The notes under the pieces: generated by a model
What the model saw: only the letters and a program-made list of their open reading frames with translations
Databases searched by the model: none
Told to the model about the DNA's origin: nothing
Made by a program: the position numbers and the translations under genes
Part shown: positions 5,276-54,371 of the stretch, piece after piece
Numbering within the stretch: position 1 is the stretch's first letter
How the letters are laid out: each line of letters starts with the position of its first letter
DNA from: Leptodesmis sichuanensis A121
Lineage (GTDB): Bacteria; Cyanobacteriota; Cyanobacteriia; Leptolyngbyales; Leptolyngbyaceae
Direction: 5' to 3'
Length of the DNA: 64,000 bases
NCBI RefSeq assembly: GCF_021379005.1
Contig: NZ_CP075171.1
Coordinates: 2,480,001-2,544,000 of the forward strand

Positions 5276-5304
5276 CGATCACCCAGCCAGCATTCGTCAG
5301 ACGG

Positions 5305-5504
5305 CTGGTTGACTGACAAATCTCCTGAACACCCGCTACATCACCAGGAAATCAATTTCCTGGCTCATCGCCAAAGTCATCTAAAGATGACTGGACAAGA
5401 GTTTCAGTCCATTTGCATGGACTTGCGCTGTTAGCCCAAAATTTATTTTAGGGCGGGTGGACAACAGAGATATGAGCCTTTCGGAACTTTTGTCAGTCAA
5501 GCAG
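5305..5504 (+). mobile_element. 200-bp MITE, copy 1
   Basis: Non-coding element with terminal inverted repeats CTGGTTGACTGACAAA at the left and the complement of CTGCTTGACTGACAAA at the right. It is flanked by a perfect 9-bp direct repeat, GTCAGACGG, at 5296-5304 and 5505-5513. Inside are four short hairpins in order: CCAGGAAAT/ATTTCCTGG, AGTCATCT/AGATGACT, AGTCCAT/ATGGACT and GCCC-AT-rich-GGGC. Two other copies of identical length lie at 21138-21337 (opposite orientation) and 22880-23079. Ends in CTG and a 9-bp duplication suggest mobilisation by an IS4-type (IS10/IS50-like) transposase. Confidence 0.9.
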
Positions 5505-5581
5505 GTCAGACGGTTAGCAGGTGGCAGTAGTAGATAGTAACTCCTGCCACGCCTGAGAAATTTTTACTGGGAGGCTGGCAC

Positions 5582-21078: not shown

Positions 21079-21137
21079 GGCTATCCCAAAATCCTCAAAG
21101 AAACTTTTGTAAATGAAAATCAAGAGCAGCCAACACC

Positions 21138-21337
21138 CTGATTGACTGACAAAAGTTCTGGAAGGCTCATGTCTCTGTTGTTAACCCGCCCTAAAATAAA
21201 TTTTGGGCTACCAGCGCAAGTCCATTCAAATAGACTGAAACTCTTGTCCAGTCGTCTTTAGATGACTTTGGCGATGAGCCAGGAAATTGATTTCCTGGTG
21301 ATGCAGCGGGTGTTCAGGAGATTTGTCAGTCAACCAG
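21138..21337 (-). mobile_element. 200-bp MITE, copy 2
   Basis: It has the same length and internal order of hairpins as copies 1 and 3, but in reverse orientation. It is flanked by perfect 9-bp repeats GCCAACACC at 21129-21137 and 21338-21346. Terminal repeats CTGATTGACTGACAAA and CTGGTTGACTGACAAA differ at one position. Relative to copy 3, the third hairpin arm carries a C-to-T change that still allows a G-U pair. The insertion is directly upstream of the serine hydrolase and could supply or disrupt its promoter. Confidence 0.9.
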
Positions 21338-21485
21338 GCCAACACCTGTATGAGCAGATTATACAACATTTCAGATTATGCGTATAATCTATTAATTAGA
21401 CTGGTTTATCCAGTTGCAGGTTTGTATTTTTTTGTAAATCACACTTTATCAAACAAGTCATTTAAAATCTTTCTTATCGTGAGTG

Positions 21486-22769
21486 TCAAGGAGGATTTTT
21501 TAAGCACTGTTGAATGGCTTCATAATCGCGTCTTCCCAAATTTTCAAGATCATAATACCAACAGATTTTTGTGATCCCGTTTTGTTTGGCTAAAAGATAT
21601 ATATTTTTGTCGGTATTTTTGCCATTTCTTATCTTTCCGCCATCTACTTCTTCTACTACTACGTCCGACCATCGATCCCTCAAATACCTTGTTTCAGTTA
21701 TAGTCATTTGCGCTTCGGCTCGATTATATCCCTTTTGTTTGAGTTCAAAATCAGGATCAATCTTAGAATGTCCCATAAAATACCAGTAGTGTCCTGCTCT
21801 TTTCAAGTCACTAATGCTTCCTCTATATCTAAGAGTGTCATTTGCTAGGTAGCTAGTAGCAACTGAATGCACAAGATCCTGAATTGCAGGCGAGTCTGGA
21901 TCAGAATACTTACCATAAATTTCAGGCTTAGCTGCCAACCATTGTTCAACTGCGTATTTAGCTTCTTGTTGGGAAATTCCTTTAGGTTGAAGTTTTATAT
22001 CCCCAATTTGATTAGATAATGGAGTTATCAACACTTCACACTTTTCATATCCATCAGCATCTATGGTAATGTTAACCTCAGTATTTGGTTTTCGTAAAAA
22101 TTGGAATTTACCTTCTAAATCTGAATCGATGATGGATACAGTATCTTTGATTTTCAAGGTAATTTTAGTTTGTACGCCTTTTCCAGTTTCTCCATTTATA
22201 ACTCGACCTTCCACTACATTTTTGGTAGGGAAAGGGTTAACAGGAGTTGTTGGAGGAGTTGTTGGAGGTGATGTGATACTCCTTACAGTATCTAAATAAT
22301 TCCTTAAGTAGACACTGCCAATGAGAAATAATCCTGATAATATTGCACCAACTATAGTTGCTACGATTGGATTATCTTTAGCAAATTGTAATAGTCTTAA
22401 TTCTTTTTTGGTACTAGCTCGGTTTATGCTAAACGTCTTCTCAGTGTATCTACGTGAAGGGTAAACTGTTACTTTTATTGTGTCTTGAGTGTAAGTACGA
22501 TCAAATGCTGCTTTGTAGTGAACTCTATCTACATCGATGTGATGTCCCTTTACGTCTTTACCATTAAGAAGAATGTCACCATACTTTGCAGTCCAAACAA
22601 ATTCAGTGTTTCCTCCAAAGTCACCTGTTAATATTACTACTTCTAGTTCTCCAGGTTTAATAGGACTAGAAATATCAATTTCTAAGCTATCGCCCTGATT
22701 GGATAATCCTTGATTTTGATTTTGGTGGCTCACATTAAAACTCCAGTAGTTAAAATTTTGTAATGCCAC
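21486..22769 (-). CDS. membrane protein with carboxypeptidase-regulatory-like and ARC6-like IMS domains
   Basis: A 427-residue protein with four parts. Residues 1-125 form a beta-rich N-terminal domain without a recognised family (ELEVVILTGDFGGNTEFVW, then RYTEKTFSINRA). One membrane helix follows (IVATIVGAILSGLFLIGSVY, about 134-155). After a Pro-Thr linker comes a CarboxypepD_reg-like fold (VVEGRVINGETGKGVQTKI, then DLEGKFQFLRKP and DADGYEKCEVLI). The C-terminal part, from about 270, resembles the IMS domain of ARC6/Ycf-type and cyanobacterial kinases (EAKYAVEQWLAAKPEIYGKY, then RAGHYWYFMGHSKI and RAEAQMTITETRYL). The combination is unusual and the role unknown. The gene is AT-rich and lies between two MITE copies. 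Confidence 0.65.
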   Translation of the reverse strand: MALQNFNYWSFNVSHQNQNQGLSNQGDSLEIDISSPIKPGELEVVILTGDFGGNTEFVWTAKYGDILLNGKDVKGHHIDVDRVHYKAAFDRTYTQDTIKVTVYPSRRYTEKTFSINRASTKKELRLLQFAKDNPIVATIVGAILSGLFLIGSVYLRNYLDTVRSITSPPTTPPTTPVNPFPTKNVVEGRVINGETGKGVQTKITLKIKDTVSIIDSDLEGKFQFLRKPNTEVNITIDADGYEKCEVLITPLSNQIGDIKLQPKGISQQEAKYAVEQWLAAKPEIYGKYSDPDSPAIQDLVHSVATSYLANDTLRYRGSISDLKRAGHYWYFMGHSKIDPDFELKQKGYNRAEAQMTITETRYLRDRWSDVVVEEVDGGKIRNGKNTDKNIYLLAKQNGITKICWYYDLENLGRRDYEAIQQCLKNPP

Positions 22770-22879
22770 AAACAGACATGATTTTTTTCTAGCCAGCCAA
22801 TTTTTCTCCTCAAACGCACTATCTCTAGTAACATGACAGTTATCTAGTGTTAGAAAAAACTACTGGGTTAGGTTATTCC

Positions 22880-23079
22880 CTGATTGACTGACAAATCTCC
22901 TGAACACCCGCTGCATCACCAGGAAATCAATTTCCTGGCTCATCGCCAAAGTCATCTAAAGATGACTGGACAAGAGTTTCAGTCCATTTGAATGGACTTG
23001 CGCTGTTAGCCCAAAATTTATTTTTGGGCGGGTGGACAACAGAGACATGAGCCTTTCGGAACTTTTGTCAGTCAATCAG
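22880..23079 (+). mobile_element. 200-bp MITE, copy 3
   Basis: Perfect inverted ends CTGATTGACTGACAAA at both sides are flanked by perfect 9-bp repeats GGTTATTCC at 22871-22879 and 23080-23088. All four internal stems are intact, including AGTCCATT/AATGGACT and GCCCAAAA/TTTTTGGGC. With perfect ends and stems, this copy is probably closest to the ancestral element. Confidence 0.92.
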
Positions 23080-23243
23080 GGTTATTCCTGATCCCATTGT
23101 TAAATTCATTCTATGAAAAATTTGCTAGAGCGACAAGTCAGTTATAGACCATATAGCCTGGGTTGAACCTTATCAAACCGGGTATGTCAGCTATTTAACA
23201 GTGCGATCACATTTTATTAACCAACGTAAATTCGTATAGATAC

Positions 23244-26027: not shown

Positions 26028-27164
26028 CTGAGATCTTGCACCATTCTCAGTAAGGGTTGCCAAAGGAGCCAAAATCTGAAAGAAAGGGCGTAGTAAAAAC
26101 AATTCAGAAGACGGTCATGGAAACCATTCTTCAACACGCCCAAGGGCTAGTGTATAGCCTCCTCTGCTTGATGCCTGGTGCCTATCAAAAAGCCAGTCTC
26201 AAGGCTCGATTGGGACTGTTTTTAGACGCTCAAGGTCATGCATTGCCTGCTCATACCTCCGTTAAATCTGCCAGTTCCTTAAGTCGATTGCTCAAGCGCT
26301 ACAACTGGTCTACTCGTGGGGTCATGCGGAACCACCCGTCAGGCGATTTTGCAGCAGCTTGCCACTCATCTACCCCATGTCAGAACCCCGATTCGCATCG
26401 TGGTTGACCTGACGACCTTAGAAAAAAGTGGCAAGTTTTGGCAGTTGAGTACCCCGACCTCAGCCCCCCAAGCTCCCGCCCCTTGGATCCGTTTTCTCCA
26501 CGGCAAACGAGGTCTACACTTGCTTGTCCTCTATCTGGTTGTGGGTGAATGGCGAGTCCCGTGGAGTTTTCGGGTCTGGCGGGGGAAAGGGTTCGCCAGT
26601 CCTGCCCAGTTGGGGTGCAAGTTGTTGGCAACCGTACCCAAGTCCTTGCTCAACGGACGAGTGGTTCTGGTGCAAGCCGATACCGAGTTTGGAACCGTCG
26701 AGTTTCTCAATGCGGTTCGTAAACGGTGTTGGCGACCTGTCGTCGGTTTGCGCAGTAATCGTACTCTCAAAGACGGTCGCTGCCTCAAAGACCTCTACCG
26801 TCATGCCAAGCGCGGTCTGCAGGACGCAAACGTTGGGCCATTGAGGGCTTTTTCAAAACCGCTCAACATCAGTTTGGTTTGCATTGTGTTGGCCAAGCAA
26901 CCAAGTTGGGGGTTTATCGTTGGCTGATTCTGTCGCTGATTGCTGATCTGTTAGCGCACTGGGTTGAGCAATGCTCACTGCCCCCTGTGCTGGAGTGGAA
27001 AACGGCCAGTCGCTTGGCACTGGAAACTTTATTGCCCTCGATTGTCTGGTTTCAACTCCTCAAACAGATCCGAATGAGTGCAGATATTGCCGCACAGTAT
27101 GGGTTTGAAATTGTCCTCAAATCCTTGCCTGACCCGGCTGATTGGGAAAGGTGCAAGATCTGAG
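26028..27164 (+). mobile_element. IS4-type insertion sequence, copy A (damaged)
   Basis: About 1137 bp with ends CTGAGATCTTGCACC (left) and CTCAGATCTTGCACC (right, as complement). Copy B at 53708-54371 has the same ends and nearly identical terminal sequence but a larger internal deletion. No target duplication is recognisable at either copy, which suggests later rearrangement of the flanks. The right end lies inside a small DUF2283-like gene. Confidence 0.85.
26057..27163 (+). pseudogene. IS4-type transposase, frameshifted and internally deleted (copy A)
   Basis: Three frames carry consecutive parts: MPKEPKSERKGVVKTIQKTV through NWSTRGV, then TTRQAILQQLATHLPHVRT and IRIVVDLTTLEKSGKF (first Asp region) with VVLVQADTEFGTVEFLNAVR (second Asp region), and finally RWAIEGFFKTAQHQFGL (YREK-like Glu region). 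Comparison with copy B shows one extra G near 26325 as the cause of the first frameshift. At about 26825 an out-of-frame deletion removes the segment between RGLQ and RKRWAIEGF. It is not functional. Confidence 0.85.
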
Positions 27165-53707: not shown

Positions 53708-54371
53708 CTCAGATCTTGCACCTTTCCCAATCAGCCGGGTCAGGCAAGGATTTGAGGACAATTTCAAACCCATACTGTGCGGCAATATCTGCACTCATTC
53801 GGATCTGTTTGAGGAGTTGAAACCAGACAATCGAGGGCAATAAAGTTTCCAGTGCCAAGCGACTGGCCGTTTTCCACTCCAGCACAGGGGGCAGTGAGCA
53901 TTGCTCAACCCAGTGCGCTAACAGATTAGCAATCAGCGACAGAATCAGCCAACGATAAACCCCCAACTTGGTTGCTTGGCCAACACAAGGCAGACCAAAC
54001 TGATGTTGAGCGGTTTTGAAAAAGCCCTCAATGGCCCAACGTTATTGAGAAACTCGCCTGACGGGTGGTTCGAATTACTCCACGAGTAGACCAGTTGTAG
54101 CGATTGAGGAATCGACTTAAGGAACTGGCAGATTTAACGGAGGTATGAGCAGGCAATGCATGACCTTGAGCGTCTAAAAACAGTCCCAATCGAGCCTTGA
54201 GACTGGCTTTTTGATAGGCACCAGGCATCAAGCAGAGGAGGCTATACACTAGCCCTTGGGCGTGTTGAAGAATGGTTTCCATGACCGTCTTCTGAATTGT
54301 TTTTACTAAGCCCTTTCTTTCAGATTTTGGCTCCTTTGGCAACCCTTACTGAGAATGGTGCAAGATCTCAG
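53708..54371 (-). mobile_element. IS4-type insertion sequence, copy B (deletion derivative)
   Basis: 664 bp with the same ends as copy A (CTCAGATCTTGCACC and CTGAGATCTTGCACC). On the minus strand the transposase starts MPKEPKSERKGLVKTIQKTV and runs to GVIRTTRQA, where a deletion joins it out of frame to RWAIEGFFKTAQHQFGLPCV and the normal C terminus. The catalytic Asp regions are gone. Copy B keeps the correct frame at the site where copy A has an extra G, so the copies have complementary damage. Confidence 0.85.

Follow-up and report, generated by a model that had tools for sequence, protein, structure and literature searches.

A four-hairpin core, probably a REP/BIME-like repeat of a subclass 1.2 Y1 transposase carried as a passenger by a DDE-type MITE, in Leptodesmis sichuanensis A121

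The TnpA transposases of IS608 and ISDra2, as well as TnpA-REP, bind their hairpins as single-stranded DNA, and a TnpA of the Y1 fold needs guide tetranucleotides. The motifs HUH, WQ and Y---Q--HH form the signature of subclass 1.2 of these transposases in the survey of Quentin et al. 2018 (PMC6006769), in which subclass 1.2 is described as generally devoid of typical terminal IS200 structures and is listed without REPs; the automatic repeat search of that survey demanded a GTAG or GTGG foot (PMC6006769). Among MITEs mobilized by DDE transposases, Nezha is a named cyanobacterial example (PMC3733652). Here we describe a repeat of L. sichuanensis A121 that shares features with all of these systems, starting from a window of 64,000 nucleotides, by which we mean the whole stretch of DNA analyzed.

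The window contains three copies of a 200-bp MITE. Copy 1 (5305-5504, forward strand; ends CTGGTTGACTGACAAA and TTTTGTCAGTCAAGCAG) is flanked by the target-site duplication GTCAGACGG on its left (5296-5304) and right (5505-5513; L001). Copy 2 (21138-21337, reverse strand; L099) lies between duplications of GCCAACACC at 21129-21137 and 21338-21346, and copy 3 (22880-23079, forward strand; L011) between duplications of GGTTATTCC at 22871-22879 and 23080-23088. Copies 2 and 3 have opposite orientations and, at a distance of 1.5 kb from each other, enclose a region of gene size (21138-23079) in the manner of composite-element arms, each with its own target duplication. Elsewhere in the window, two pairs of inverted repeats, 336 and 301 bp long and 98-99% complementary, lie 27 kb apart at 26028-27164 and 53708-54371 and are likely to be two copies of one mobile element.

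Across the genome, a single contig of 5.35 Mb, there are about 70 related copies with a constant unit length of 200 bp and the termini CTG(A/G)TTGACTGACAAA...TTTTGTCAGTCAA(C/T)CAG. Both ends are present in 39 of the 66 copies examined, and 9-bp target duplications are perfect in 18 of these 39 and carry one mismatch in 7, so that the inverted ends, constant length and target duplication expected of a DDE MITE are all found. One intact DDE transposase ORF (G000:C1:5347492-5348664) lies between TTGACTGACAAAA ends that match the MITE, although the outermost bases on the left differ; this intact element adjoins a broken MITE copy, and between its ends it holds the gene and not the MITE interior. 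We call it IS4-like, a fair name since Pfam DDE_Tnp_1 matches above its cut-off but the NCBIfam model IS4_2 falls below (121.7 vs 152). The anatomy of the MITE shows that the window copies moved by DDE transposition.

The interior of the MITE is a core of four hairpins (5342-5456 in copy 1, forward strand) which also occurs at Y1 tnpA loci and in differently ended MITEs of other genomes. Hairpin H1 (5344-5363) reads CCAGGAAAT-CA-ATTTCCTGG, with 9-bp arms at 5344-5352 and 5355-5363; H2 (5375-5392) reads AGTCATCT-AA-AGATGACT, with 8-bp arms at 5375-5382 and 5385-5392; H3 (5406-5423) reads AGTCCAT-TTGC-ATGGACT, with 7-bp arms at 5406-5412 and 5417-5423; and H4 (5434-5454) reads GCCCAAAAT-TT-ATTTT(A)GGGC, with one bulged A, GCCC/GGGC arms at 5434-5437 and 5451-5454, and an inner AAAAT/ATTTT stem, all on the forward strand. 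H1 and H4 are approximately reverse complements of each other, as are H2 and H3, and our covariance model of the core, R1, therefore matches both strands. A preliminary description of this DNA had proposed these four hairpins from the sequence alone, and all of them, with every motif it named, were located in the window sequence at the positions it gave, as was the G-U pair that it claimed for stem 3 of copy 2. Its long-range match between GGCTCAT (5362-5368) and ATGAGCC (5472-5478) is likewise present, but only partly conserved, with 5 to 7 of 7 pairs formed in 11 IS4-type MITEs; the ATGAGCC tail also pairs with a segment just 5' of hairpin 4 (helix 2; 86.9% of cells paired). The 115-nt core has a folding energy of -22.8 kcal/mol as single-stranded DNA, compared with -11.1 +/- 2.6 for shuffled sequences (z = -4.5, 0/200), and the centroid of this fold is exactly the four hairpins.

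In three other genomes (G022, G015 and G027), two tandem cores lie directly 3' of a gene of about 150 aa whose product is a Y1 transposase (PF01797 Y1_Tnp, 1.2e-27). The nearest solved structures to this protein are the ISHp608 and ISDra2 transposases, and HUH, WQ and Y---Q--HH are present in all 8 diverse members aligned (alignment A3). At the G022 locus (L051, C1 about 1.041 Mb), the tnpA gene and its two tandem cores lie within a type I-D CRISPR operon, flanked by cas10d/csc3 and csc2; a similar arrangement is seen in two other genera (L110 in G015 and L111 in G027), where the cas genes are candidates, and the tnpA reading frame terminates inside hairpin 1. The unit also occurs split around tnpA, with H1-H2 before the gene and H3-H4 after it (G004 and G029), and an equivalent arrangement, made of different hairpin sequences, is seen in G053 and in the own genome. 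In the relatives represented by L113, L116 and L208, tnpA lies between left-end and right-end hairpins, as in IS200/IS605 elements, and the window copies contain no gene. Whole cores occur on both sides of tnpA in Aliterella atlantica, Oscillatoriales USR001, Microcoleus and Tychonema, and inverted palindromic units of the kind that defines REP/BIME are dispersed and also arrayed at tnpA (arrays L182, L190, L203 and L212). One such array, that of Hormoscilla sp. GUM202 (L190, 4054-4778), consists of five tandem core units at an exact spacing of 149 bp.

A scan of named genomes returned 80 tnpA loci, in 66 of which the gene is intact and both flanks are available. An R1 match lies within 700 bp of tnpA at 54 of the 80 loci, a proportion that is not fully independent of the model, as some loci (e.g. 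relatives of G022 and G027) overlap the genomes behind R1. Around the 66 intact genes, a perfect hairpin occurs within 220 bp upstream in 53, downstream in 54 and on both sides in 47, compared with one or more perfect hairpins in 12% of 771 control windows. Two subclass 1.2 protein clades among these loci (L178-L257) track two hairpin styles, YV.NQK.HH with AGTCNNCT..AGNNGACT and YIRNQ.HH with AACCCGCCTNCGCGGGTT, and members also occur in Chloroflexi and Thiotrichaceae. While the unit adjoins genes with the subclass 1.2 signature in relatives, the only subclass 1.2 tnpA found in the own genome (L118, G000:C1:1408070-1411429) has hairpins of another type, the gene being followed by four tandem half-units GTCCGC..GCGGAC-TAGCC-GCGATT..AATCGC.

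With hairpins and R1 matches flanking tnpA, the module is, as judged from sequence and gene neighborhood, a putative REP/BIME-like repeat of this subclass 1.2 Y1 transposase, and its split form suggests that it may also represent the fused left and right ends of a tnpA-bearing element. There is no GTAG or GTGG at the feet of H1-H4 in the window copy, and the unit is therefore REP-like and not a canonical GTAG REP. Of the three roles considered in the preliminary description, recognition during movement is the one that these loci support, given that the hairpins are those accompanying Y1 HUH transposase genes and would be bound by TnpA.

The core is not confined to one MITE family. When left and right core flanks were compared against shuffled sequences, at least four unrelated end sets were found around it across cyanobacteria: CTG(A/G)TTGACTGACAAA in G000, G003, G032, G040, G022, G015 and G019, with 9-bp duplications where read; AGAGGATGTTTGAAAAGTA in G006, G033 and G029, with ends that adjoin TTA/TAA; TAACTGAGATCTTGCA in G004 and G008, with the variant TAGCTCAGATCTTGCACC in G020; and TAGGGCGTGTTTTAAA in G004. 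Two further end sets are likely in G034 and G046. The tnpA-bearing copy L116 of G029 retains a left-end remnant of the IS4-type MITE (0/500 shuffles), with no significant match for the right end. The simplest reading of one module in unrelated MITEs is repeated capture followed by amplification, and it is possible that the core benefits its carrier. A bolder version, that unrelated DDE MITE families independently and repeatedly took up the HUH module because it helps them spread, which would combine two trans chemistries acting on double- and single-stranded DNA, strikes us as rather unlikely.

The strongest rival explanation is that the MITE's own DDE transposase uses the hairpins, as subterminal binding or cruciform sites, with the link to tnpA being secondary. 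The position of the core about 14-31 bp inside the carrier ends in several MITE families would fit this reading, as would the rarity of amplified changes in stems, which the terminal repeats share (see below). However, a single core within at least four unrelated end sets, its adjacency to tnpA genes in many genomes, and an intact IS4-like element that has a gene instead of the core between matching ends all argue against it, and we regard it as improbable.

Comparison across genomes establishes that the four hairpins are real and conserved by compensatory change. Among the 58 genomes searched, the core was found without these MITE ends in other genera, and covariance model searches with R1 gave core matches in 30 of the 58 relatives. 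Across 20 diverse cores, 88.5% of stem cells are paired, compared with 80.6% in shuffled alignments and at most 55% when the stems are slid; double changes affect 15 stem pairs, and the covariation score is 0.239 vs 0.106 (0/500). Both arms of H2, AGTCATCT/AGATGACT, are rewritten elsewhere as AGTCCTCT/AGAGGACT, AGTCTTCT/AGAAGACT, AGTGCTCT/AGAGCACT or AGTCTACT/AGTAGACT, and H3, AGTCCAT/ATGGACT, as AACCCGT/ACGGGTT. A larger alignment (A4) is not used as main evidence, since its rows were fitted to the model and most of the cores enter it twice, once per strand. Covariation among copies, proposed in the preliminary description as a check, is strong across other genomes but absent from the stems within the own genome alone, and the evidence for it therefore comes from other genomes.

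Such covariation, and a stable multi-stem fold of the core as RNA (z = -5.5), would also be expected of a structured RNA gene or a cis-regulatory RNA, such as a processed RNA or an mRNA stabilizer, traveling aboard the MITE. Selection on RNA should, however, clearly favor G-U over C-A pairs, and the H2 and H3 stems of 57 unique cores are 95.4% Watson-Crick with G-U (1.7%) as rare as C-A (1.1%), so that an RNA role is not supported. In layout, the core closely resembles its reverse complement, with both strands matching the model; the gene context is inconsistent; and an Rfam search of the element at gathering and permissive thresholds returned nothing relevant. An RNA role is thus very improbable: the earlier proposal of selection on nucleic-acid structure holds, through covariation across genomes, while its extension to a processed RNA does not. 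HEARO/omega RNA and integron attC, which we considered as candidates for the element, lack Rfam support, and GTTAGCC is unlike the attC core.

Within the own genome, deviation from the consensus amounts to 1.7% in stem cells, 4.1% in the other core sites, 1.5% in the terminal repeats and 4.0% in the remaining flanks. Private changes occur at 0.379 per site in stems vs 0.378 at other sites; by class, the values are 0.38 in stems, 0.38 in the other core, 0.32 in the terminal repeats and 0.36 in the remaining flanks. Shared (amplified) changes are rarer in stems (13/66 vs 40/100, p = 0.007), with p = 0.18 when stems are compared with core non-stem sites alone, and 18 of the 66 copies carry a mismatch (A.C) at one H2 pair. 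Stems broken as often as loops, named in the preliminary description as the pattern that would contradict structural selection, are thus what the private changes display, whereas the shared changes avoid stems. Because private changes are equal everywhere and shared changes are fewer in stems, there is modest evidence that the constraint falls on multiplying lineages rather than on in-place use of single copies. A host function in place was rejected, as private mutations are equal in stems and loops. The least probable of the rivals is a transcription insulator, also offered in the preliminary description, or a bidirectional terminator, either of which would shield the neighbors or the MITE: the hairpins are strong and, of 30 copies inspected, 28 do not overlap an ORF, but there is no excess of convergent genes (12 divergent, 8 convergent and 8 tandem neighbors), no T-run follows hairpin 4 or the other hairpins, and stems are not spared private mutations, which argues against in-place use.

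We consider it highly probable that the window copies are composites, in which a REP/BIME-like, tnpA-less Y1 element is carried by a DDE MITE, with TnpA binding expected from family knowledge. The outer part is the 200-bp MITE with CTG(A/G)TTGACTGACAAA inverted ends, moved by a DDE (IS4-like) transposase that leaves 9-bp duplications, as its anatomy shows; the inner part, the four-hairpin unit of about 120 bp, would be the repeat of a subclass 1.2 Y1 HUH transposase related to those of IS200/IS605. Where the unit is split, H1-H2 match the hairpins on the left side of tnpA and H3-H4 those on the right, and in other genomes whole units flank the gene as REP/BIME-like arrays. TnpA would bind the hairpins as single-stranded DNA, as its IS608, ISDra2 and TnpA-REP counterparts do, and this binding may preserve pairing in the stems as their sequence diverges. 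In the window, the unit would then be a tnpA-less passenger, captured and amplified by the MITE. Its HUH side is probably idle in the window copies, because the only subclass 1.2 gene found in the own genome has other hairpins, and the copies probably spread by the DDE route. The stems without own-genome covariation, the private mutations as frequent in them as in loops and the broken H2 pair amplified to 18 copies count against this composite reading. If it is correct, a transposase subclass previously without a substrate gains a candidate one, so that its activity becomes directly testable; miniature elements from several transposon classes would house a hairpin module that belongs to another class; and the covariation of stems would record a long-term constraint on the structure of DNA, not RNA.

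The composite resembles each of three known systems in part. With IS200/IS605 elements (IS608, ISDra2), it shares a Y1 transposase related to the TnpA of ISHp608 and ISDra2, hairpins at both ends and internally deleted derivatives, PATEs of Haloquadratum being, reportedly, tnpA-less relatives of IS200/IS605 elements. IS608 has one hairpin per end, whereas here there are two hairpins per end and a low-copy gene, and the window copies spread by DDE transposition that duplicates 9 bp. With REP/BIME (REPIN) sequences and the REPtrons of TnpA-REP/RAYT (PMC6006769, PMC3733652, PMC3116915), it has in common inverted palindromic units in many copies, which, singly or in arrays, flank one Y1 HUH gene, often with several units per gene. 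It differs in that the gene belongs to subclass 1.2, reported without REPs (PMC6006769), and in that the unit has four hairpins, H1 being inverted relative to H4 and H2 relative to H3, and occurs within DDE MITEs. Like bacterial DDE MITEs, the element has a length of 200 bp, inverted ends, duplicated target sites and numerous intergenic copies, and the genome contains an IS4-like gene whose ends match apart from the outermost bases on the left; unlike them, it contains a covarying hairpin module common to other MITE families in place of a shortened transposase gene.
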